64,000 nt of DNA from Chryseobacterium nepalense (lineage in GTDB: Bacteria; Bacteroidota; Bacteroidia; Flavobacteriales; Weeksellaceae), in contig NZ_CP096203.1 of the NCBI RefSeq assembly GCF_023195755.1, forward strand, positions 2,294,001-2,358,000, read 5' to 3'. This document shows positions 2,624-61,571 of the stretch, in pieces. Made by a program: the position numbers and the translations under genes. Numbering within the stretch: position 1 is the stretch's first letter; each line of letters begins with the position of its first letter. The notes beneath the pieces are model-generated. The model was not told the DNA's origin. It did not search any database and saw only the letters and a list, made by a program, of their open reading frames with translations.

Positions 2624-3463
2624 ATGAAAACAGTACTATATACATTTCTGGTTTGTTTATCAACCCTTATTACCGCCCAGAAAAAGCCTGGGGAATATTT
2701 TTCCGGTACCAAACCGCAGGTGCTCGTCGTAGGATCCTTCCATTTTGACTATCCGAATCTCGATGCCCACAAAACTGAAAAAGGGGATCAGGTTGATGTG
2801 CTATCTCCAAAAACGGCAAAAGAAGTCACTGCGCTTGTAGAGTATATTAAAAAGTTCAAACCTACGAAAATAGCCATCGAGGCATTTCCGAACTGGAATG
2901 CCAATCAGAAGCTGAAAGAATACAAGGAAGGCAAGCATAATGATAAAAGAGATGAGCGGTATCAGCTGGCCATGCGTATTGCGAAAGAGCTTAAGATCAA
3001 CGAGCTGTACAGCATAGATGCAAATTCGGTGCTGGATGATCTGCAGGAAAAATTTGCCAAAACCGATTCCCTATATTTCAAGAACCTGAGTGCAGAATAC
3101 GACTTTCAAAGTGATGATCCTGTTTCAAAACAGTACAATACTTTCTTTAAAAGCTCGGAACCCAAAAACTTCAGATCATTGCTGGATCTTTTCAAATATA
3201 CGAACGGGAAAGAATACCATCAGCATGAATACGGAGCATACCTGAGTGGCGATTTTAAGCTAAGAGAACATGACGGTGCAGATATGCTGGCATTGTACTG
3301 GTACAACAGGAACCTTAGAATGTTCAGAAATATTCAGAATATTCCACATCACCCGGAAGACAGATTGCTGGTAATTGTAGGCAATGGGCACGCCTCTGTT
3401 CTGAGACAGTTATTCACATCATCCCCTGATTTCGATTATACGGAATTCGATTCTTTGAAATAA
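2624..3463 (+). CDS. DUF5694 domain protein, secreted
   Basis: Exported protein of 279 residues with a signal peptide ending near ITAQ (residues 1-19). The mature part matches the DUF5694 family: strand-loop motif VLVVGSFHFDYPN near residue 34, then DVLSPKTAKEV and PTKIAIEAFPNW. A second motif VGNGHA lies near residue 252. The two GX2H motifs (GSFH and GNGH) recall the paired GX2H motifs of TraB/TIKI/EreA-like metal hydrolases; that link is my inference and no enzymatic role is established. A preceding promoter makes it a likely single-gene unit. Directly downstream is the degenerate remnant of a second gene of this family, so there was once a tandem pair. Confidence 0.8.
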   Translation: MKTVLYTFLVCLSTLITAQKKPGEYFSGTKPQVLVVGSFHFDYPNLDAHKTEKGDQVDVLSPKTAKEVTALVEYIKKFKPTKIAIEAFPNWNANQKLKEYKEGKHNDKRDERYQLAMRIAKELKINELYSIDANSVLDDLQEKFAKTDSLYFKNLSAEYDFQSDDPVSKQYNTFFKSSEPKNFRSLLDLFKYTNGKEYHQHEYGAYLSGDFKLREHDGADMLALYWYNRNLRMFRNIQNIPHHPEDRLLVIVGNGHASVLRQLFTSSPDFDYTEFDSLK

Positions 3464-3510
3464 AAATTTAAGCAGCTTCCACACATTAGAGAATTTAGTC
3501 ATTATTAACA

Positions 3511-3707
3511 ATGAAAACAATACATTTTACCACGCTCTTTCTTGCCTTTGCCACTTCTTTGCAGGCCCAAACTTCAATAAAATCAACATCAGCAAGAATG
3601 ATCGCATCGTACTGCTGATGGGAGGCACCCATACCGCATTTTTCATGGATTTCCTGAAGAGAAGCCCCAAATACAGACCCGAATCTGTTTTAAAGTATAT
3701 AAAATAA
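3511..3707 (+). pseudogene. Remnant of a second DUF5694 gene (middle deleted, frame lost)
   Basis: An ATG at 3511 opens a good signal peptide (MKTIHFTTLFLAFATSLQAQ) that runs to a stop after 35 codons. In the +1-shifted frame from about 3582 to the stop at 3705-3707 lies a tail reading INISKNDRIVLLMGG, then THTAFFMDFLKRSPKY and a short end. This matches the C-terminal end of DUF5694 proteins (compare LLVIVGNGHASVLRQLF in the intact neighbour) and keeps a GX2H motif (GGTH). A full-length gene would be about 840 bases, so roughly 600 bases of the middle are missing and the ends have been fused out of frame. It is almost certainly non-functional, apart from a possible 35-residue secreted peptide. 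Confidence 0.7.
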
Positions 3708-3765
3708 AGCCTTACCCTGTAACAAAAATAAATTTCATGCGTCTAACCTGATACGACAAGACATT

Positions 3766-6000
3766 ATGAAAAAAACAATTATTGCCTTATCATTTCTGGG
3801 TACGGTGTGTACTTATGCCCAAGAAAAGACCAATAATCAGGTAAAAGAAAAACAAATTGAAGGAATTACGATCACCAAAACTAAAAAAGCCGTTGAGCAA
3901 AAAGCCGACCGTACGATTTTCGACTTCTCTGAACAACCGCAGCTGAATAACAGCAATGTCCTGGAAGGTATCAAAAAACTTCCCGGGCTTGTTTCCACCG
4001 ATATTGCAGGAATGATGTATCAGGGAAAGGTACTGGACGTATACCTCAACGGAAGACCTTTAAATATTACTTCTAATGAGCTGAACTCTTTTCTGGAAGG
4101 CATGCCTGCCAATTCGGTAGACCGGATTGAAGTAATCACACAGCCGGGTGCAGAATTTCCGGCGACTTCCGGAGGGGCCATCATGAATATCATCACCAAT
4201 AAAAATGCTAATAAATATTTAACGGCGACCTATTCCGGCAACTACTCTTTTACAAATTACGATAAATACAGAAGCAGAACGAGCAATTCCCTCAATCTAA
4301 ATGCAAGAAATAAAATCTTCGGATGGCAATTAAATGTCGGCCAAAATTATCGTGAAAGTATGCTGAGCGGCAAGCAGGATAATCTTTTAACAAGCAATAC
4401 CGACAGATTCGGAAGAGGATATTTTGCAAAATCGGGACTGACTTTTGACTTGGGGCAGGACCGGTTGCTTGTAAATTATGATATTTACCATAACAACAAT
4501 GACAATTACACATTAAGTGACGGAGACGGACAGGAAGCCAAACCGATTCCTAACACGAATCCGCAACAATTTACGTACAGAGATTTTAGTTTTGACGCAT
4601 CCGATGCTGCCCATACACTTACCACGAGACAGGAAGCAGTGGTTACTTACCAAAAGCGATTCTCAGACAAGGCTCAAAAACTGGATTTTCAGTTTGGTTA
4701 TACAAAATCCGACAGTAAGTTTGTCCAGGATAATATTTTCAGAGATAAAAAATATGCCGATACCGGTTTATGGGAACCAAGGATTTCTTTGGGAAATGTT
4801 CTGAATAATACCTCTGATATGAGAGTCGCTAATTTTAAAGTAGACTATTCTCAACCACTGAATCTTCTTGACGGTGGAAAAGTAAGCCTGGGCGGTTTAT
4901 ATGAGCATCAGGAATTCGATACGGAAAGCAAAGGAATCACCAACCTGGATTATACAAGACAAACAACTGCAACCTATCTGGAGTTCCAGGCGAAACTCAA
5001 AAAATTTGATTTTATATTGGGAACCCGCGCAGAAAATTATGACATCTCCGGTATTACAAGATATAACGATCAAACCAATACCCTTATTGAAGCAGATCTT
5101 ATTCCTTTTAATAAATTTAAATTATTTCCGAATGCCAGTGTTCAGTACAATCTGATGAACCAGGTCTATGTAGCGGCGAATTATAACAAAAAAATAAACC
5201 TGCCAAGTATTTCCGCACTGAACCCGAATAACGTAACATTCCAGGGCCCGAATACGCAGGTAACCGGTAATCCGAACCTTCAGCCTACTATTTTCGATAA
5301 TTATGAACTGAAAATTTCGGCTTTCGATTATGCATTCATCGGTTACAGTGTGAGCTCTGCAAAAAATCAGGTGGCGCAGATTATCAGGAAAGACGGCAAG
5401 AACCTGTTTAATGAGCAGATTAATATTTCAGACATGAGAATTCATAACTTCAATGTCGGGTTGCCTGTTCCGTTTATGATCTTCAGTAAACCTCTGAGCG
5501 AAATTATGAAGTTTAATTTTAACCCTGATAAAATTAATTTCATGTACATTTATGCCGGATACCAGAAACATGACATTGATAATCTGAATAACAGAGGCTT
5601 CTGGATTTTCAATCTCATGACGCAGATTATTTTACCGAAAGAAATAAAGCTGACGGCAAATTATAGTTATTTAACTCCTAAAGCTGGTTATTTCTACTTC
5701 ACAGCAGAAAAGCCTTTCAACAATTCTTTTGATCTTACGTTAACGAAGAAATTCATGGACAACCGTCTGACTGTTTCTGTCTTCGCGAATGATATTTTCA
5801 ACGGACAGGTAATGCAGGTACGTTCAAACCCGCCATCAGGAGAATCTGTATTTATAAGAAGTAAATACGATACAAGAAACTTCGGATTATCCGTAAATTA
5901 TAAGATTCCAACGAAAAACAAGCTGGCTAAGGAAGATGCCAATATCCTGAACCAGACGAAGAAAGAAGAAAATAGCGGCGTGATGCAGCAGGGACAATAA
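3766..6000 (+). CDS. Outer-membrane beta-barrel receptor (TonB-dependent-receptor-like)
   Basis: Outer membrane protein of 744 residues with a signal peptide ending at CTYAQ. A TonB plug-like region (about 45-150) contains LEGIKKLPGLVSTDIAG and VDRIEVITQPGAEFPATSGGAIMNI; the rest is a long beta-barrel rich in alternating aromatic residues, of the Bacteroidota outer-membrane beta-barrel family 2. It lacks the N-terminal carboxypeptidase-like domain often found in this family and has no neighbouring SusD gene, so the substrate cannot be deduced. A TAAATTTC box at 3729-3736 could be a weak -7 element. It is followed by a strong hairpin. Confidence 0.85.
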   Translation: MKKTIIALSFLGTVCTYAQEKTNNQVKEKQIEGITITKTKKAVEQKADRTIFDFSEQPQLNNSNVLEGIKKLPGLVSTDIAGMMYQGKVLDVYLNGRPLNITSNELNSFLEGMPANSVDRIEVITQPGAEFPATSGGAIMNIITNKNANKYLTATYSGNYSFTNYDKYRSRTSNSLNLNARNKIFGWQLNVGQNYRESMLSGKQDNLLTSNTDRFGRGYFAKSGLTFDLGQDRLLVNYDIYHNNNDNYTLSDGDGQEAKPIPNTNPQQFTYRDFSFDASDAAHTLTTRQEAVVTYQKRFSDKAQKLDFQFGYTKSDSKFVQDNIFRDKKYADTGLWEPRISLGNVLNNTSDMRVANFKVDYSQPLNLLDGGKVSLGGLYEHQEFDTESKGITNLDYTRQTTATYLEFQAKLKKFDFILGTRAENYDISGITRYNDQTNTLIEADLIPFNKFKLFPNASVQYNLMNQVYVAANYNKKINLPSISALNPNNVTFQGPNTQVTGNPNLQPTIFDNYELKISAFDYAFIGYSVSSAKNQVAQIIRKDGKNLFNEQINISDMRIHNFNVGLPVPFMIFSKPLSEIMKFNFNPDKINFMYIYAGYQKHDIDNLNNRGFWIFNLMTQIILPKEIKLTANYSYLTPKAGYFYFTAEKPFNNSFDLTLTKKFMDNRLTVSVFANDIFNGQVMQVRSNPPSGESVFIRSKYDTRNFGLSVNYKIPTKNKLAKEDANILNQTKKEENSGVMQQGQ

Positions 6001-6056
6001 ACTAAATATGAATGTTCATATCATATTTAATGTTTAAAAAGGTATTTATCAATTGG

Positions 6057-6078
6057 AGCGGACTAAAGTCCGCTTTTT
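6057..6078 (+). terminator. Intrinsic terminator after the receptor gene
   Basis: Perfect stem AGCGGACT/AGTCCGCT with an AA loop, followed by TTTT. The bases just right of it (about 6093-6113, GACGGCTTTAGCCAAAAC) hold a second small self-complementary block (GGCTTTAGCC); the two together look like a dispersed repeat unit. Confidence 0.7.
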
Positions 6079-6158
6079 CTATATTACTTCTTGACGGCTT
6101 TAGCCAAAACTTAAGAATAATATTTACCTGTACCACCGTGAAATATTGAAATTTTTGT

Positions 6159-6869
6159 TTAAAAATCAATAGTCTGAAAACGCCAGCGTAAGGTATCAAT
6201 CAGAGTCAGTTGATTCAGCTGCAATGGAAGATCTGTAATGATCTTTAATGTTAAATTCGCCATCATGCTTCCGACAATTCCGGGCAGAGCTCCCAAAACT
6301 CCCAGACTGTCACAATCCGGAAAATCTTCATCAACAGGAGGCTCCGGGAAAATATCCCTTAAGTTTTTGCTTCCATTGTAGTTAAAAATTGCAACCTGTC
6401 CGGAAAATCCGAGAATACTTCCATAGACCAGAGGTTTTTGAAGTTTTACACAAATGTCATTAACCAAATATCTCGTTGTAAAATTATCGGAACCGTCAAC
6501 AATGATATCAAATTCGGAAATCATGTCTTCAGCATTTGTTTCATCAATTTTTTGTTCAATGCCAATATATTGAATCTGGTGATTTAAGGTTCTGACAAAA
6601 TTTTCAGCACTTTTTACTTTAGAAATACCAATCGTATTTTCATTGTGAACAATCTGTCGGTTTAAATTGTGAAGTTCTACCTTATCAAAATCTGTAACAC
6701 CCAGAGTTCCGACTCCCGCAGCAGCCAGATATTGAATGACCGGACTGCCTAGACCACCAGCCCCAATCACCAAAACTTTAGAGTTTAGTATTTTTCTTTG
6801 ACCTTCCAGACCGATTTCTTCGATAAAGATCTGTCGGCTGTAGCGGGCAAAGATGTCTTCGCTTTTCAT
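6159..6869 (-). CDS. thiF: ThiF/MoeB-family adenylyltransferase (thiamin sulfur-carrier activation)
   Basis: E1-like enzyme of 236 residues that adenylates the C-terminal Gly-Gly of ThiS so sulfur can be loaded. The ATP loop GAGGLGSP is at 36-43; Arg/Asn contacts are in VELHNLNRQIVH (N70, R71), and VDGSDNF is at 124-130. PDCDSLGVLG keeps the cysteine of the crossover loop. The protein ends soon after that domain: the C-terminal CxxC zinc knuckle and the rhodanese domain found in longer MoeB/MoeZ proteins are absent. It is the last gene of the thi operon, 30 bases after thiH, which supports a ThiF role over MoeB, though it may also serve molybdopterin synthesis. Confidence 0.88.
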   Translation of the reverse strand: MKSEDIFARYSRQIFIEEIGLEGQRKILNSKVLVIGAGGLGSPVIQYLAAAGVGTLGVTDFDKVELHNLNRQIVHNENTIGISKVKSAENFVRTLNHQIQYIGIEQKIDETNAEDMISEFDIIVDGSDNFTTRYLVNDICVKLQKPLVYGSILGFSGQVAIFNYNGSKNLRDIFPEPPVDEDFPDCDSLGVLGALPGIVGSMMANLTLKIITDLPLQLNQLTLIDTLRWRFQTIDF

Positions 6870-6899
6870 TAATAATTTATTGTTGATTTTTTTTAAGTT

Positions 6900-8018
6900 T
6901 TATATCCCGCTGTAAACCGAGTCCCAGTCTTTCATTACAGGATCGTAGCCTGATTTTTTAATGATATTTTTAATTTCATCCATACTTCTTTCATCGCTGG
7001 TCTCAAACTGTTCCAGAGATTCTTTGTCTACGGAATAGCCCCCCGGATTAGTTTTAGAAGCCGCACTCATTGTTGTTGCTCCTAATGAAATTATATGATT
7101 TCTAAATTTTTCATTCTCTCTTGTCGAAATTGAAATTTCCAGATCTTCATTCCAGATTCTGTATGCGCAGATCAGCTGAAGCAGATCTTTATCTTCCATG
7201 ATAAAATTAGGTTCTATAATACCTTCGGCAGGCCGCAGTCTCGGAAATGAAACGGAATATTTGCTTTTCCAATAATTTTTCTGAAGATAATCAATATGAA
7301 ATGCATTAAAAAAACTATCGATTCTCCAGTCTTCCAATCCCAGTAAAACTCCCAGTCCTATTTTATGAATTCCGGCGCTTCCGATTCTGTCCGGTGTTTC
7401 CAGACGAAAATCAAAATTTGATTTTTTTCCTTTCGGATGATATTGTTTATATACTTCCTGATGATAGGTTTCCTGATAAACCAAAACCGCGTTCACTCCT
7501 GCTTCATGCAGCTTTCGGTACTCTTCTTCCGATAAGGGCTGAACTTCAATCGAAATATTGGCAAAATGTGATTTCAAAAGCCGTACGGCATTCAGAAAAT
7601 ATTCAATACCGACTGTTTTATTGGCTTCACCGCTTACCAGTAAAACATGATTGACACTCATGGATTTCAAAACGGCAGCTTCCATCATCAGTTCCGTATC
7701 GGAAAGTGTTTTTCTCCTGATAAGATTATCCAGACTGAAACCGCAATAAGTACAGATATTCTGACATTCATTGCTAAGATAAAGCGGAGCATACAGCTGA
7801 ATGGTTTTACCAAATCGCTTCTGAGTAAGGCTTTGTGCCATTTTTGCCATTGTCTCTAACTTCTGAGAAGCAACAGGTGAAATAAAATTTAAAAAATCTT
7901 CTATGGTTTTATTTTTTTTCTGCAGGCTTTTTTCAACATCATTCAGCGTTACTTTTTCCAGCTTTTCTTTCACGTCATCCCATTGGTATTGATCGAAAAT
8001 GTTTTTAAAACTTTTCAT
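6900..8018 (-). CDS. thiH: 2-iminoacetate synthase (tyrosine lyase)
   Basis: Radical SAM enzyme of 372 residues that cleaves tyrosine to dehydroglycine and p-cresol, giving the glycine imine needed for the thiazole ring. The [4Fe-4S]/SAM motif CQNICTYC (C85, C89, C92) sits at the N-terminal end of the barrel; SGEANKTVGIEYF, VYQETYHQEVYKQYHPKGKK and the C-terminal region follow ThiH closely, and length is typical. Use of ThiH rather than the oxygen-dependent glycine oxidase ThiO means thiazole synthesis here does not need O2. It lies 12 bases after thiG and 30 before thiF. Confidence 0.95.
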   Translation of the reverse strand: MKSFKNIFDQYQWDDVKEKLEKVTLNDVEKSLQKKNKTIEDFLNFISPVASQKLETMAKMAQSLTQKRFGKTIQLYAPLYLSNECQNICTYCGFSLDNLIRRKTLSDTELMMEAAVLKSMSVNHVLLVSGEANKTVGIEYFLNAVRLLKSHFANISIEVQPLSEEEYRKLHEAGVNAVLVYQETYHQEVYKQYHPKGKKSNFDFRLETPDRIGSAGIHKIGLGVLLGLEDWRIDSFFNAFHIDYLQKNYWKSKYSVSFPRLRPAEGIIEPNFIMEDKDLLQLICAYRIWNEDLEISISTRENEKFRNHIISLGATTMSAASKTNPGGYSVDKESLEQFETSDERSMDEIKNIIKKSGYDPVMKDWDSVYSGI

Positions 8019-8030
8019 TTTACTTACATA

Positions 8031-8807
8031 TTAGTCAAACAAAAAAGATGTTAACGGGCTTGAAGCTTCAGCATGCTGTGCTATTGCTCCTAATCCGGAT
8101 TCAAAAGCTCTTCTTCCGGCAATAACGCCTTCTTTAAAAGCCAATGCCATATTTACAGGGTTTTGGGCTACCGCAATTGCCGTATTCACCAAAACCGCAT
8201 CAGCACCCATTTCCATGGCTTTTGCCGCATCGGAGGGTGCCCCAATTCCTGCATCTACTACCACAGGAACATTACTCTGGCTGATAATAATTTCTAAAAA
8301 ATCAATTGTCTTAAGACCTTTATTGGTTCCTATTGGTGCTCCCAAAGGCATCACAACCGCAGTTCCGGCATCTTCAAGACGCTTGCATAAAACAGGGTCA
8401 GCATGAATGTATGGCATTACGATAAATCCTAATTTTGCCAGTTCTTCCGTAGCATATAATGTTTCGATAGGATCCGGAAGCAGGTATTTCGGATCTGGAT
8501 GGATTTCGAGTTTTACCCAGTTGGTTTCCAAGGCTTCTCTTGCCAGCTGTGCTGCCAATACTGCTTCTTTAGCTGTTCTCGCTCCTGAAGTATTCGGTAA
8601 AAGATGAACTCCTGTCGGTTGGATGGCATTCAGCAGATCATCTTCTGAAGATTGAGAGTCTATACGCTTAAGTGCCATCGTTACCATTTCGCTTTCCGAT
8701 GCAATGACAGAGTCTGTCATTTCGGAAACGTTACCGAATTTTCCCGTTCCCAGAAACAATCTTGATTCAAAGGTCCTGTCTGCTATTATTAATTTTTGAT
8801 TATTCAT
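8031..8807 (-). CDS. thiG: Thiazole synthase
   Basis: TIM-barrel enzyme of 258 residues that condenses deoxyxylulose phosphate, the ThiH-derived imine and ThiS-thiocarboxylate sulfur into thiazole phosphate. The Schiff-base lysine is K99 in [10 protein letters not shown]. Other family hallmarks are [10 protein letters not shown] near residue 16, [27 protein letters not shown] and [23 protein letters not shown] (phosphate site). Its start overlaps the end of thiE by 4 bases, indicating translational coupling; thiH follows after 12 bases. Confidence 0.96.
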
Positions 8808-9418
8808 TGTAATGCTGTTGTAAATTTGGTAATGATAGAAGGCTGCTCCGTAATCTGTCCTGAAACAGCCACTCCGTAAATTCCGATTTGCTGTAATAAT
8901 TCTATATCATTCAGTACCACACCGCCGATGGCAAAAATTTTAGGGATTGCAAGTGATTTGTCATGTAATTCCTGGACAATGTTCTGATATCCTCTGAATC
9001 CTAAAACCGGACTCAGCTGTTCTTTAGTTGTTGTAAATCTGAGAGGACCAAGTCCAATATAATCACACGATTCTACCATTCGCTGAAGAACGTTCTGAAA
9101 TGTATTAGCCGTCCCTCCTATAATTTTATCTTCTCCTAAAATATATCTCGCTGTTTCAACTGACATATCATTGAGTCCCACATGAACGCCATCGGCATCA
9201 ATATCTTTTGCGATCTGAACATGATCGTTAATGATACAAACAGCGTGATGATCTGAGCATAATGTTTTTGAAATTTCACAGAGCGTAATAAAATCTCTTT
9301 GGGGAGCATTTTTCCAGCGTACCTGAATCCATTTTACACCATTATCAAGCGCTTTCCGGATATTGGTTTCCTGTTCTTCTCTTGTATAACCCTGAGAGAT
9401 GTATTGTAATTTTTCCAT
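8804..9418 (-). CDS. thiE: Thiamin-phosphate synthase
   Basis: Protein of 204 residues that joins HMP pyrophosphate to thiazole phosphate. It keeps the canonical motifs: WIQVRWKN (30-37, normally QLR-K), GVHVGLND (77-84) for the pyrophosphate and [11 protein letters not shown] (122-132), then GFRGYQ and FAIGGV. Of the two ThiE-superfamily proteins in this operon this is the one with a complete active site, so it is the probable synthase. It overlaps thiG by 4 bases. It is separated from thiD by 90 bases that hold a copy of a short dispersed repeat. Confidence 0.93.
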
Positions 9419-9424
9419 TTATTT

Positions 9425-9446
9425 TTAAACGCAAAGGCGCTAAGTT
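9425..9446. repeat. Short dispersed repeat (AACGCAAAGGCGC type)
   Basis: The block AAACGCAAAGGCGCTAAG followed by a T run lies in the only sizeable gap inside the thi operon. Degenerate relatives (AAACGCAAAG, then ATGCAAAGGC) occur at 13125-13168. It looks like a small mobile or degenerate intergenic repeat; no function is visible. Confidence 0.4.
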
Positions 9447-9508
9447 TTTTTTTATTGTTTTAAATCGCAACTGCATTCATTCAGTAAAGGTTAGCATTTA
9501 ATGTCCAT

Positions 9509-10227
9509 TTAAGAATGAAATCCTAATAAAGCAGATGTGCTTGCCAGAAATTTCTCAATGTATAACTTTCCTTTCCGACAGGCCTGTTCCAGATTTTCTC
9601 CTAAAGCTAAATGACCTGTAATTGCAGAAGAGAGCACACAACCTGAACCATGTTTTGGATAGTAGACACAATTTCTATCATGGGGTTCAATTGAAATTTC
9701 TTCACCGTTTTCGAGTAAAATATCTGTTCCTACATTGTCTTCGCGATGACCTCCTTTCATTAATATTGCACATGAATTTCTCGGATTTTCAAAAAACCCA
9801 TTTTCTTTTAAAACCTTATATTCATTGTAGTTGGGTGTGATTAGATCGAGTTGATGCAAAACATTTCCCAGTTGAGAAATAGTATTTAAATCAAAAAAAG
9901 AAAATTCAGAGGTGCTTTTCAAAACCGGATCCCAAACGATTTTAGCTTCAGTATTAATTAATTTGATTGTCTTAATAATTTCATTTAAAAATTCCGCGTC
10001 TTTTACCACCCCTATTTTTACGGCCTTCACATCATAGTTTTTCATTAAAACATGAATTGAGTTTAAAATATCTTCTAAAGGTTGCCACTGAATTCCAAAA
10101 AATTCAGATTCTGTTTGTAAAGTCATTGCCGTACAGACAGCCAATCCCTGGACTTTTAACTGTTCAAATGTTTTAACATCCGCCAGTAGACCTGCTCCAC
10201 CACTTGGATCGAAGCCGGCAATACTCA

Positions 10228-10252
<25 letters not shown>
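9509..10252 (-). CDS. thiD: Hydroxymethylpyrimidine/phosphomethylpyrimidine kinase
   Basis: Ribokinase-fold kinase of 247 residues that phosphorylates HMP and HMP-P to HMP-PP. N-terminal SIAGFDPSGGAGLLADVKTF (10-29) binds substrate; DPVLKSTS and ITPNYNEYKVL are conserved; the catalytic anion hole is KHGSGC (C205), with GSGC in place of the more usual GTGC. No ThiE domain is fused to it. The start overlaps the end of the TenI-like gene by 25 bases. Confidence 0.94.
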
Positions 10253-12638
<2,386 letters not shown>

Positions 12639-12845: not shown

Positions 12846-12916
12846 TCCTAAATTTTTTATATACTTTAGGAATGCCCATCATTGTACAATAGAATGTACA
12901 GCAAAGTCATTTCACT

Positions 12917-12999
12917 TTTCCCTACGCTAGTATGATCTAGAAATCAGGTTCAAAGGGTAAATTCTCAGCCTGCTATAAACAGACACCCCTAAAGTTGAA
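12917..12999 (-). promoter_or_regulatory. TPP riboswitch (THI element)
   Basis: Read on the minus strand the leader contains, in order, GGGGTGTC, CTGAGA (complement of 12963-12968), ACCCTTTGAACCTGAT (complement of 12943-12958) and CTAGCGTAGGGAA (complement of 12918-12930). These are the nearly invariant pieces of the thi-box aptamer. It lies between the promoter and thiS, so it should repress the whole operon when TPP binds. I see no clear terminator hairpin after it; control at the thiS start is likely, which is the usual arrangement where no terminator is present. Confidence 0.95.
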
Positions 13000-13000
13000 A

Positions 13001-58613: not shown

Positions 58614-58643
58614 AAAAGGAGACTTATTTTGTCTCCTTTTTTG
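58614..58643. terminator. Bidirectional terminator between cytochrome and TPR genes
   Basis: Perfect stem AAAAGGAGAC/GTCTCCTTTT (58614-58623 and 58631-58640) with a TTATTTT loop and T and A runs outside. The stop codon of the TPR gene is in the loop. Confidence 0.85.
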
Positions 58644-59133
58644 TTTTCTTTTTCTTCGGCATTTTGGATTTAATGAATTTCTTACGGTCTTTCACCACAT
58701 CCAGACTGTATTTTGTAAAGCAGTACTTTGCGGTTTCATCTAAAAATTTCAGCGCATTTACACAACTGCCGCGTTTTTCGGAAAGTAAAGACCTGTAAAA
58801 CCATAAGGTTGCTTTATCAATTCCCTTGATTTTCAAAGAATAATCAATCAGTTTTTCGGCTTCGTGATAGTCTTCGTTATCAATAAGGCAGCTGATGTAA
58901 TATTGAGGAACATTCAGATTCGTAACATCACACTGCATAGCTTCTTCAAAGTACAGCTTTGCCTTTTCATAATCGGATAACATCTCACTGTAGATTCTTC
59001 CCATGAGACAAAGACTGTCTGCATCTTCAGGATCATAAGATAAAGCATAATTCAACGCTTCCAGACATTCCGGAAGATTGTAAGGATAATTATCCAGCGC
59101 TTCGAAGTAGTATTTATTTTTAGTTAAGGTCAT
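58624..59133 (-). CDS. Small TPR protein of the rtcB-prfH operon
   Basis: Soluble protein of 169 residues built of about three to four tetratricopeptide-like helix pairs: ECLEALNYALSYDPEDADSL, CLMGRIYSEMLSDYEKAKLYF then EEAMQCDV, and YHEAEKLIDYSLKIKG. The tail is very basic (KKKKTKKETK). No enzyme motif. Its start overlaps the end of prfH by 14 bases, so the two are translated together. A role as an adaptor in ribosome repair is my inference from that coupling. Confidence 0.8.
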   Translation of the reverse strand: MTLTKNKYYFEALDNYPYNLPECLEALNYALSYDPEDADSLCLMGRIYSEMLSDYEKAKLYFEEAMQCDVTNLNVPQYYISCLIDNEDYHEAEKLIDYSLKIKGIDKATLWFYRSLLSEKRGSCVNALKFLDETAKYCFTKYSLDVVKDRKKFIKSKMPKKKKTKKETK

Positions 59134-59818
59134 TGTTGTAATTTTTTAATTCTTTTTTCAGTTGGTCTCTTTGCTTTTTGAAAGATTTTTCCTGATGGTT
59201 CTTTTTAAAATCCGTTCCGGAAAATGTCCGGATGGGATTTCCTCTCTGTACCTGCAGATGATTATTCCATGTATCCTGTAATCTTTTCTGAATCATGATA
59301 ATATTTTGTTCCAATACTTTCTCTTTCAGTCTTGAAATGGAAATCTTCTTATTTTCCAGCTGAGAACGAGAATCCTGCACGAAAACACTGTGACCGGTCG
59401 GAAGGTATGTGGCCCGTACCGCCGTATTCACCTTATTCACATTTTGTCCACCACTTCCCTGGCTTCTGGCCGTCTGAAAACGAATATCCTTTTCGTTAAA
59501 ACTTACTTTCCTTTCTTCTTCCAGTTCAAAGATTCCGATGAACCAGTTGGTTCTTTTATGTAGCTTCCTAAAAGTACTTTTCCCGGTCCAGCAAATACTT
59601 CCCAACCAGTTTTTTAAAAATTCGTTTACCATTTTTGATTTTAAAAGAATGGTTACGGATTTGAGGGTAAGGTTTTCGTCACCGTTTTCACGATGAATGA
59701 TTTCATAGTCTATATAGTTATTTTTTGCGTCCTCAAGGAAAACCTTCAGCACTTTTGCCACTACCCACTGGCATTCCAAAGGTCCTTTTCCGGAGGTTAT
59801 TTGTATTATTTTGTCCAT
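59120..59818 (-). CDS. prfH: Peptide chain release factor homologue PrfH
   Basis: Release-factor-like protein of 232 residues (start MDKIIQIT) with an N-terminal RF-H domain (GKGPLECQWVVAKVL) and the catalytic GGQ at 123-125 in ARSQGSGGQNVNKVNTAVR. It lacks the stop-codon recognition domain of RF1/RF2. PrfH proteins pair with RtcB2 and are reported to act on ribosomes stalled by damage in the 16S decoding centre. Here rtcB is 88 bases upstream, and an overlapping TPR gene follows. An in-frame extension upstream lies in a palindromic repeat and is unlikely to be translated. Confidence 0.93.
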   Translation of the reverse strand: MDKIIQITSGKGPLECQWVVAKVLKVFLEDAKNNYIDYEIIHRENGDENLTLKSVTILLKSKMVNEFLKNWLGSICWTGKSTFRKLHKRTNWFIGIFELEEERKVSFNEKDIRFQTARSQGSGGQNVNKVNTAVRATYLPTGHSVFVQDSRSQLENKKISISRLKEKVLEQNIIMIQKRLQDTWNNHLQVQRGNPIRTFSGTDFKKNHQEKSFKKQRDQLKKELKNYNNDLN

Positions 59819-59840
59819 TGTTATTTTTTTGTTAACCGTT

Positions 59841-59902
59841 GTTGTTGGTTGATGGTTATTAGGAAATAGATATCTATCAACTAACAGCCATCCACAAACA
59901 AC
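59841..59902. repeat. Palindromic repeat between prfH and rtcB
   Basis: Two 30-base arms, GTTGTTGGTTGATGGTTATT... (59841-59870) and the block 59873-59902, are complementary at 23 of 30 positions around a TA centre. It looks like a mini mobile repeat placed between the two genes; transcribed, it would form a long imperfect hairpin that could lower prfH expression relative to rtcB. Confidence 0.6.
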
Positions 59903-59906
59903 CAAA

Positions 59907-61298
59907 TTATTTATCCATCCTCACAATCCGAGGCTGAAAAGTTCCAAGAATATCGACGAGTTCCTGTTGTGCATTCATCACTTCATTGATGTCTTTATAT
60001 GCCATTGGTGCTTCTTCAGCATTACCACCCATTAAAGTGACATTTTTAAGTTTTAATTCTTTTCTGATATCATTCTGGGTAAAAAGATTTCTGCATTCTC
60101 CTCTTGAATATGCTCTTCCCGCTCCATGAGAAGCGGAGTTCAGCGAATCCGGATTTCCTTTTCCGCGCACGATAAATCCTTTTGCCGTCATAGAACCGGG
60201 AATCATTCCCAATTCATTTTCATTGGCCGGAGTTGCTCCCTTTCTGTGGACAATCACTTCTTTTCCGTTATGAATTTCTTTCCATGCGAAATTATGGTGA
60301 TTTTCAATTTTTGCTTTTACCCTTCCTCCGACAGCTTTCACAAGTCTTCTGTGAATATCATCGTGACATGCTGAAGCATAGTCTCCTGCAAGATTCATTG
60401 CCGTCCAGTATTCTAATCCTAGATGGGTATTCAGATCCAGCCAGGCAAATTGCTGTGCTTCTTTGGGTAGCGGGCACTGCTCTGTTGCAACCCTGGAATA
60501 GTATTGAGCAATTTCTGCCCCTAATCCGCGCGATCCGCTGTGTGAAAGAATTCCCAGATACTTTCCCTTCGGAAGCCCGATCTGACCGTCTTCTTCTGTA
60601 ATTTCCACCTCTCCGAATTCTACGAAATGATTCCCACCACCGGAAGTTCCCATTTGTTTAATGGCTTTTCCTTTCAGTCTTTTTAAAATCGGAATCATAT
60701 CAAATGTATCGCTGTCGAAAATTTCATGATCGACATGAGATTTATGAGTTTCATACATCCCGAATTTTGTATGCTCCATTAGTACTTTCTCATACTTATC
60801 TCTTGCTCCGTCCAGATAGGAAACCGGAGTATCCAAAATACTCAGGCTCATTCTACAGCCGATATCCATCCCGACTCCGTAGGGAATCACTGCGTTTTCA
60901 ACAGCAAGCACTCCTCCGATCGGTAGACCGTAACCGCTGTGCGCATCAGGCATTAAAGCTCCACTTACTGAGACCGGAAGTTTCAGTGCTGTGTACAGCT
61001 GATTTTTTGCTTCATCTGAGATATTATTTCCGAAAATCTGAAAAGAAGCCCGGTTTGCATTGAGCATTCTTTTTTCTGTTTTTTTTGATGAAAGCAGGGC
61101 TTCCGCTATTTGTCCGAAGGTTAAATCTTTTTCGAAGTGCTCCGGATTTTGCAGAATTTTTTTTAAAAGAGATTTCACATGATGTATATTCTTCGTCGCA
61201 AAATTTCTTTTCATGACTTCCAAAGCAATGTTGATACTTTGATTGTTCGGATAGCCTATTTTTAATATGTCTTTTCCTTTAAGTTTTAAATTTCCCAT
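59907..61298 (-). CDS. rtcB: RNA ligase RtcB (RtcB2 type)
   Basis: GTP- and Mn-dependent ligase of 463 residues that joins RNA 2',3'-cyclic phosphate ends to 5'-hydroxyl ends. Metal ligands D145 and C148 are in YGVGMDIGCRMS, other ligands in GTSGGGNHFVEFGEVE (around 217-232) and LSHSGSRGLG, and the guanylated His is H391 in SASHGAGRAYSRG. It is first in a transcript with prfH and a TPR gene. Pairing with prfH marks it as the RtcB2 type, for which repair of nicked rRNA is known, rather than tRNA splicing. Confidence 0.95.
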   Translation of the reverse strand: MGNLKLKGKDILKIGYPNNQSINIALEVMKRNFATKNIHHVKSLLKKILQNPEHFEKDLTFGQIAEALLSSKKTEKRMLNANRASFQIFGNNISDEAKNQLYTALKLPVSVSGALMPDAHSGYGLPIGGVLAVENAVIPYGVGMDIGCRMSLSILDTPVSYLDGARDKYEKVLMEHTKFGMYETHKSHVDHEIFDSDTFDMIPILKRLKGKAIKQMGTSGGGNHFVEFGEVEITEEDGQIGLPKGKYLGILSHSGSRGLGAEIAQYYSRVATEQCPLPKEAQQFAWLDLNTHLGLEYWTAMNLAGDYASACHDDIHRRLVKAVGGRVKAKIENHHNFAWKEIHNGKEVIVHRKGATPANENELGMIPGSMTAKGFIVRGKGNPDSLNSASHGAGRAYSRGECRNLFTQNDIRKELKLKNVTLMGGNAEEAPMAYKDINEVMNAQQELVDILGTFQPRIVRMDK

Positions 61299-61489: not shown

Positions 61490-61571
61490 TCCTAGCCCGG
61501 ATTGCAGCGGCTACCCCACAGCGAACCTGAAAGGTGAGTGAGGAGTAATAGCGGAAAGCCGGAAATAGCTT
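61490..61571. repeat. Structured intergenic repeat, copy C (short form)
   Basis: CCTAGCCCGGATTGCAGCGG at the left and AGCGGAAAGCCGGAAATAGC at the right match the flanks of copies A and B, but the long hairpin has been replaced by a short segment with an ACCTGAAAGGT hairpin. Confidence 0.65.

Follow-up and report, generated by a model that had tools for sequence, protein, structure and literature searches.

A tetratricopeptide repeat gene that regularly follows rtcB and prfH in Flavobacteriales, a candidate third component of ribosome rescue and repair

This analysis concerns the rtcB-prfH operon of Chryseobacterium nepalense, which lies in a 64,000-nucleotide stretch of contig NZ_CP096203.1; the whole of this stretch is called the window below, and the host genome is 3.99 Mb in one contig. 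In the open reading frame list of the window, rtcB (59907-61298), prfH (59120-59818), and a gene for a small tetratricopeptide repeat (TPR) protein (58624-59133) form a head-to-tail trio, all on the minus strand. The first encodes a predicted GTP/Mn-dependent RNA ligase of 463 amino acids, of a Bacteroidota-type subfamily, the second a peptide chain release factor H of 232 amino acids that starts from the ATG at 59818, carries a GGQ motif at residues 123-125, and ends in a basic C-terminal tail (about residues 201-232), and the third a protein of 169 amino acids with TPR-type helix pairs and a Lys-rich tail. The 88-base spacer between rtcB and prfH (59819-59906, minus strand) contains a long imperfect hairpin; the TPR gene starts inside the end of prfH, and these two genes share the 14 bases from 59120 to 59133. 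An alternative TTG start at 59905 adds an N-terminal extension to PrfH and nothing else, and is probably not the real prfH start. The reading frames and motif residues bear out the layout that a first-pass annotation of this DNA had proposed, with three genes, an intact RtcB (D145, C148, and H391), a GGQ motif in PrfH, and a 14-base overlap between prfH and the TPR gene.

The ligase matches PF01139 with 271.7 bits, and when its motifs are aligned with those of solved RtcBs, residues D145, C148, H224, H253, H334/H335, and H391 are all present. We take the residues up to H334/H335 to be the metal ligands and H391 to be the guanylylated histidine and presumed nucleophile. Judged by these motifs, the operon contains an RtcB-PrfH module whose ligase retains its metal ligands and guanylylated histidine. 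The first-pass annotation had read the two genes as an RtcB2/PrfH pair. The module is indeed intact, but the RtcB2 label is ruled out by scores below the cut-off for both TIGR03073 (140.6 bits, cut-off 271.8) and PRK09588 (172.2 bits, cut-off 407) and by separate branching in a tree. Its neighbors there are other RtcBs of Bacteroidota, and E. coli RtcB1, E. coli RtcB2, and viral PrfH-linked RtcBs lie elsewhere. The branch between the ligase and E. coli RtcB2 has a support of 100/97, with the caveat that E. coli RtcB2 sits on a long row of unsure placement, as are the positions of some other long branches in this tree. From these comparisons of sequence, we conclude that the window's ligase falls outside the E. 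coli RtcB2 type.

PrfH of the window has the GGQ motif and no N-terminal domain, and passes the curated model TIGR03072 (200.2 bits, cut-off 166.65). Its nearest solved relative, 62-64% identical, is the 231-amino acid PrfH in the structures 9mor and 9mq4, both titled "Damaged 70S ribosome with PrfH bound". The alignment to this chain (E 4e-97) reaches residue 225 of 232, which lies inside the tail, and PrfH of the window is a member of the same tailed subfamily, basic C-terminal extension included. The solved chain comprises 229 residues in 9mq4 versus 208 in 9mor, and the tail is for this reason probably ordered in one of the two structures. A report on PrfH whose title reportedly speaks of the rescue of both damaged and intact ribosomes presumably concerns these structures. 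The predicted model of PrfH from the window was poor (predicted local distance difference test (pLDDT) 67.7) and was of use chiefly for the titles of its Protein Data Bank (PDB) matches.

The third protein is a tetratricopeptide repeat protein with a lysine-rich tail, as the first-pass annotation had it. Its match to PF14559 is barely over the cut-off (25.6 bits against 25), and its AlphaFold2 model (pLDDT 84.7) consists of TPR-type helix pairs followed by a last helix and the Lys-rich tail. In the 139 relatives that are full-length, the net charge over the final 20 residues ranges from -2 to +15, with a median of +9, and is +4 or more in 134; for the first 140 residues the median is -7. The nearest named relative, 98% identical, is from Chryseobacterium cheonjiense. 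In a first fold search, none of the matches to its model reached E <= 0.001, PDB sequences contained no relative of this TPR family beyond generic TPR matches, and neither PADLOC nor PHROGs gave a match for the protein.

The occurrence of the TPR gene was followed in three samples, comprising 246 genomes of the window's family (f1; f and g numbers are our family and genus labels), 393 genomes of the order, and 394 of the phylum. In the family, PrfH was matched in 140 genomes (one of these matches is a remnant) and the TPR protein in 137, including three with weak matches only (G009, G049, and G088). The first-pass annotation had suggested a survey of rtcB-prfH loci for a following TPR gene; in 127 of the 140 PrfH genomes, such a gene is found on the strand of PrfH and no more than 500 bases downstream of it. 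When the loci of all 140 and of two other genomes were read, with GTG and TTG starts allowed, 137 had a full PrfH, and the TPR gene was intact in 116 of these, broken or startless in 9, and absent from 12. Nine of the 12 loci that lack it are g21 loci with a short PrfH, which may never have had a TPR gene. Broken or startless copies beside an intact prfH occur in several species (L012, L171, L174, L208, L224, L226, L245, L263, and L022). Outside the family, all 40 PrfH loci of the order sample were read; 39 have the TPR gene immediately after PrfH, and G651 is the exception. These 39 span three further families. With the window's own, four families of the order have the TPR gene behind prfH, and it is no peculiarity of one genus or strain. 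In the phylum sample, 25 genomes have both proteins, 2 only PrfH, 3 only the TPR protein, and 364 neither (Fisher p 5e-34, a statistic that ignores shared ancestry).

The junction of the two genes is conserved as well. The exact 14-base overlap recurs in 104 of 114 family pairs in which both genes are intact from ATG starts and, by our start calls, in 9 of 39 pairs outside the family. Over pairs with 0.1 < dS < 1, the median pairwise ratio of nonsynonymous to synonymous substitution rates (dN/dS) is 0.029 for RtcB, 0.086 for PrfH, and 0.081 for the TPR protein (154 pairs for the latter). The TPR gene is clearly under purifying selection, and its low dN/dS, together with the overlap, is more than chance.

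Genera in which the module is patchy offer a fairer test of joint inheritance than the phylum-wide Fisher statistic. Among the genomes listed, 12 of genus g9 have both PrfH and the TPR protein and 10 have neither, and the corresponding numbers for g26 are 6 and 29, so that the two proteins are jointly present or absent in all 57; the TPR gene is damaged in three of the positives (G111, G132, and G075). None of the 39 negatives in these genera has the locus-type RtcB, nor do two more genomes of the window's own genus, and 7 of these 41 have only another RtcB, 30-32% identical. Trees of the three proteins, built from the 102 of 164 loci in which all three genes are long enough, point the same way. 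In two g10 loci, RtcB, PrfH, and the TPR protein are all nearer to copies from another family, f2 (probably Flavobacteriaceae), than to those of the window (distances of 0.38-0.45 versus 0.99-1.06, 0.79-0.88 versus 1.36-1.45, and 0.94-1.02 versus 1.84-1.92, respectively), so the three genes have a history in common there. Decay of the module is lopsided in the family, where 21 loci have a full PrfH with a damaged or missing TPR protein versus 3 with a full TPR protein and a broken or missing PrfH; one more PrfH is truncated by a contig end. The TPR gene is retained beside rtcB where prfH is lost, broken, or reduced (G051, G175, and G569), and beside prfH in two genomes whose inspected stretch shows no locus-type rtcB (G069 and G864). 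At another locus (L073, genome G206, 3432-5091), all three genes seem to have collapsed to shortened, overlapping remnants.

Other genes recur at these loci. Among the 137 family loci with a full PrfH, a nucleotidyltransferase match, with Pfam scores around the cut-off, was found at 64, mostly inside a much longer rtcB-prfH spacer, and a zinc-ribbon protein at 19; such long spacers mostly contain a nucleotidyltransferase-like gene, a zinc-ribbon gene, or both. The TPR gene is the most constant of these three accessories. A Lys/Arg-rich charged protein is often encoded upstream of rtcB, where many loci end too near the gene for a count. The operon of the window is the minimal form among the loci compared. 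Its genome gave no match to one nucleotidyltransferase query and one charged-protein query, single-sequence searches that are weak, and the zinc-ribbon protein was not searched for. An enlarged form of the operon (L074, genome G071, 3319-11455) encodes rtcB, a charged protein, a hexapeptide-repeat protein, a zinc ribbon, prfH, a calcineurin-like phosphoesterase, a protein that matches EF-Tu domain 3, and others, with a TPR gene 3.5 kb past prfH.

Two published descriptions bear on this operon. In E. coli, RtcB2-PrfH protects against colicin E3 in vivo; PrfH releases the peptide from ribosomes cut at the decoding center, and after dissociation of the subunits the ligase closes the break in 16S rRNA (PMC9223846). 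The pair of E. coli ATCC25922 resembles that of the window in its adjacent, co-directional genes and in a PrfH of the same curated family. It differs in its ligase, which has 379 amino acids and belongs to another RtcB branch, in its PrfH, which is tailless and about 204 amino acids long, and in its surroundings, where pepD comes next on the opposite strand and TPR, nucleotidyltransferase, and zinc-ribbon genes are not annotated. The first-pass annotation had regarded the TPR protein as no established member of the system, a view that does not hold. A TPR gene is listed among the accessories of RFH-RtcB, together with a Pol-beta nucleotidyltransferase, a zinc ribbon (ZnR), and a charged or charged-helix protein, in section 2.4 of Burroughs and Aravind 2019 (PMC6514570), where one sentence gives the association along with the same scaffold idea. 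All four descriptions fit genes at the loci compared here, matched by description and not by their sequences, and the window has the TPR gene of this kind. The same work offers Rqc1, a TPR protein of eukaryotic ribosome quality control, as an analogy. The TPR protein of the window has generic TPR matches only and no specific sequence or fold link to Rqc1, which is not among the fold matches listed for its model, an absence that does not exclude a relation. The TPR protein as a partner of RFH-RtcB is thus already in print and not new. Section 2.4 is silent on counts, overlap, and co-inheritance, in contrast to the present analysis; what is new here is the constancy of the TPR gene in the order, its joint gain, loss, and history with its neighbors, the conserved overlap, the link to a tailed PrfH, and a ligase that is not of the RtcB2 type.

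The explanation that we favor, with moderate confidence, is that the operon serves ribosome rescue and repair against ribotoxins, with the TPR protein as its third component in Flavobacteriales, where it would act as an adaptor on the ribosome. Peptide release and RNA ligation are known from relatives, and the parts of the operon suggest that both take place in C. nepalense. A nuclease would cleave 16S rRNA at the decoding center, PrfH would occupy the A site of the stalled ribosome, and its GGQ loop would free the nascent chain; the subunits would then part, and RtcB would join the 2',3'-cyclic-phosphate and 5'-OH ends. The best guess for the TPR adaptor is that its basic tail would grip rRNA, that its TPR body would bind PrfH and/or RtcB, and that it would link PrfH-bound or split damaged subunits to RtcB. 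We propose that, by such bridging, release would be followed by repair.

Several results weigh against this explanation. PrfH and RtcB are kept where the TPR gene is absent (12) or broken or startless (9), and at these 21 of 137 family loci the pair is evidently maintained without it. Two PrfH genomes from two other families of the class (G261 and G365) have no TPR protein, and no TPR gene is annotated directly downstream of the E. coli and Aureibacter pairs. Conversely, TPR relatives of 158-193 amino acids occur in six genomes without a PrfH match or a prfH-type rtcB (G006, G028, G041, G064, G468, and G601), which indicates that the protein may have another role or may outlive the module. A second fold search with the TPR model returned generic TPR proteins only (best Z about 10, many root mean square deviations over 10). 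Terminator-like sites are not enriched in the region (4 found versus 2.9 expected in shuffled sequence), and because they are near chance frequency, we place the TPR gene last in the operon mainly from gene order.

The main rival explanation has the TPR protein act on the tail of PrfH, which it would cap, deliver, or restrain, preventing release on working ribosomes; tailed PrfH may, by this account, also rescue intact stalled ribosomes. We regard it as possible but doubtful. Tail and TPR gene do go together. Of the 150 loci at which PrfH starts with ATG and has at least 190 amino acids, 129 have both, 3 have a tail without a TPR gene, 7 have a TPR gene with a tailless PrfH, and 11 have neither; among 27 more loci at which PrfH ends in a Lys-rich stretch, 26 have a TPR gene. 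With intact and broken TPR genes taken together, this amounts to 155 of 159 tailed loci (129/132 plus 26/27) and 7 of 18 tailless ones. The tail motif is also retained where prfH and the TPR gene do not overlap, the first 140 residues of the TPR protein are net acidic, and the two solved PrfH chains suggest that the tail is ordered in one state. The seven TPR genes beside a tailless PrfH, and the three tailed loci without a TPR gene, all of the window's own genus, do not fit this rival. The tailed loci are, moreover, confined to few clades, and the association represents few independent events. The tail may also simply lodge by the mRNA channel of the ribosome, the place ascribed to the C-terminal helix of ArfB.

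An independent role in housekeeping or regulation, with no tie to rtcB and prfH beyond co-transcription, is in our judgment improbable for the TPR protein. The six genomes that have it without PrfH or a prfH-type rtcB would fit such a role; in two of them, of genus g28, the TPR gene lies in another, shared context, away from any module gene. Against it stand the joint presence and absence within genera and the shared history in g10, and one of the six copies, that of G006, looks like a leftover of the module because it lies between methylmalonyl-CoA mutase and meaB, the module's site in this genus. In G041 the matched stretch of the TPR relative is interrupted by stops, and a neighbor gene is in common with G071. 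That the module targets RNA damage other than colicin E3-like cuts, such as cleavage of tRNA or 23S rRNA, or non-stop stalling in general, is unlikely in our view. A ligase outside the E. coli RtcB2 subfamily and the recurrence of nucleotidyltransferase and zinc-ribbon genes at related loci would agree with this, but a close relative of the window's PrfH has been solved in complex with damaged 70S ribosomes. Beyond the adaptor that we favor lies a bolder proposal, which we put forward as speculative and rather unlikely as a whole. The repair module of Flavobacteriales would be a three-part machine, in which a dedicated TPR protein would have evolved with tailed PrfH and would control it, binding the basic tail so as to keep PrfH away from healthy ribosomes and passing cut 30S subunits to a separate RtcB lineage.

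Searches for the TPR protein on plasmids, phages, and viral contigs found none. PrfH was matched in 15 plasmid records, several of them chromosome-sized. When 24 of 80 PrfH matches on viral contigs were checked, 9 also had an RtcB match and none a TPR match; IMG/VR contigs with PrfH, a nearby RtcB, and no TPR gene are L350, L352-L356, L358, L371, and L381.

Around the operon, the end of the TPR gene overlaps with a palindrome (58614-58640, assigned to neither strand), which the scan scored as a terminator-like site of the plus strand. On the minus strand, T-rich sequence (TTTTGTATT) comes after it, and this weak site may also terminate the rtcB-prfH-TPR operon. A promoter scan of the region found 7 sigma-70-like sites versus 8.4 expected, an uninformative result from a promoter type that may not apply to this host. 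In the window and in homologous spacers of other species, a strong hairpin frequently occupies the short stretch between rtcB and prfH; the repeats that form it differ among species and fall into several types that look unrelated. Hairpins with z < -3 occur in 16 of 18 short spacers versus 54 of 91 controls (medians -5.7 versus -3.4; Mann-Whitney p 3e-4), and we make no claim for them because the controls, taken from mechanical open reading frames, are mostly strong too. A Flavo-1 RNA match lies between rtcB and the next gene (61490-61569, plus strand). A role as a special rtcB leader is ruled out for it, since the genome has 39 such matches (15 over the cut-off) and this one is on the opposite strand. 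Elsewhere in the window there is a thiamine pyrophosphate (TPP) riboswitch match (12902-13000, minus strand). The genome has a second, distant RtcB (L006:1438-2865, at about 3.79 Mb) beside a nucleotidyltransferase (605-1354), a separate RNA-repair pair in which the latter presumably resembles RlaP.

Ribosome repair is one way to survive a ribotoxin, and in the literature on RtcB-PrfH considered here it has been studied as the work of two proteins. If a third protein is regular across the order, two-protein reconstitutions of flavobacterial systems would be incomplete. The pairing of tailed PrfH with the TPR protein offers a simple test of how release is confined to damaged ribosomes, and the counts given here turn an association published in one sentence into a testable claim.

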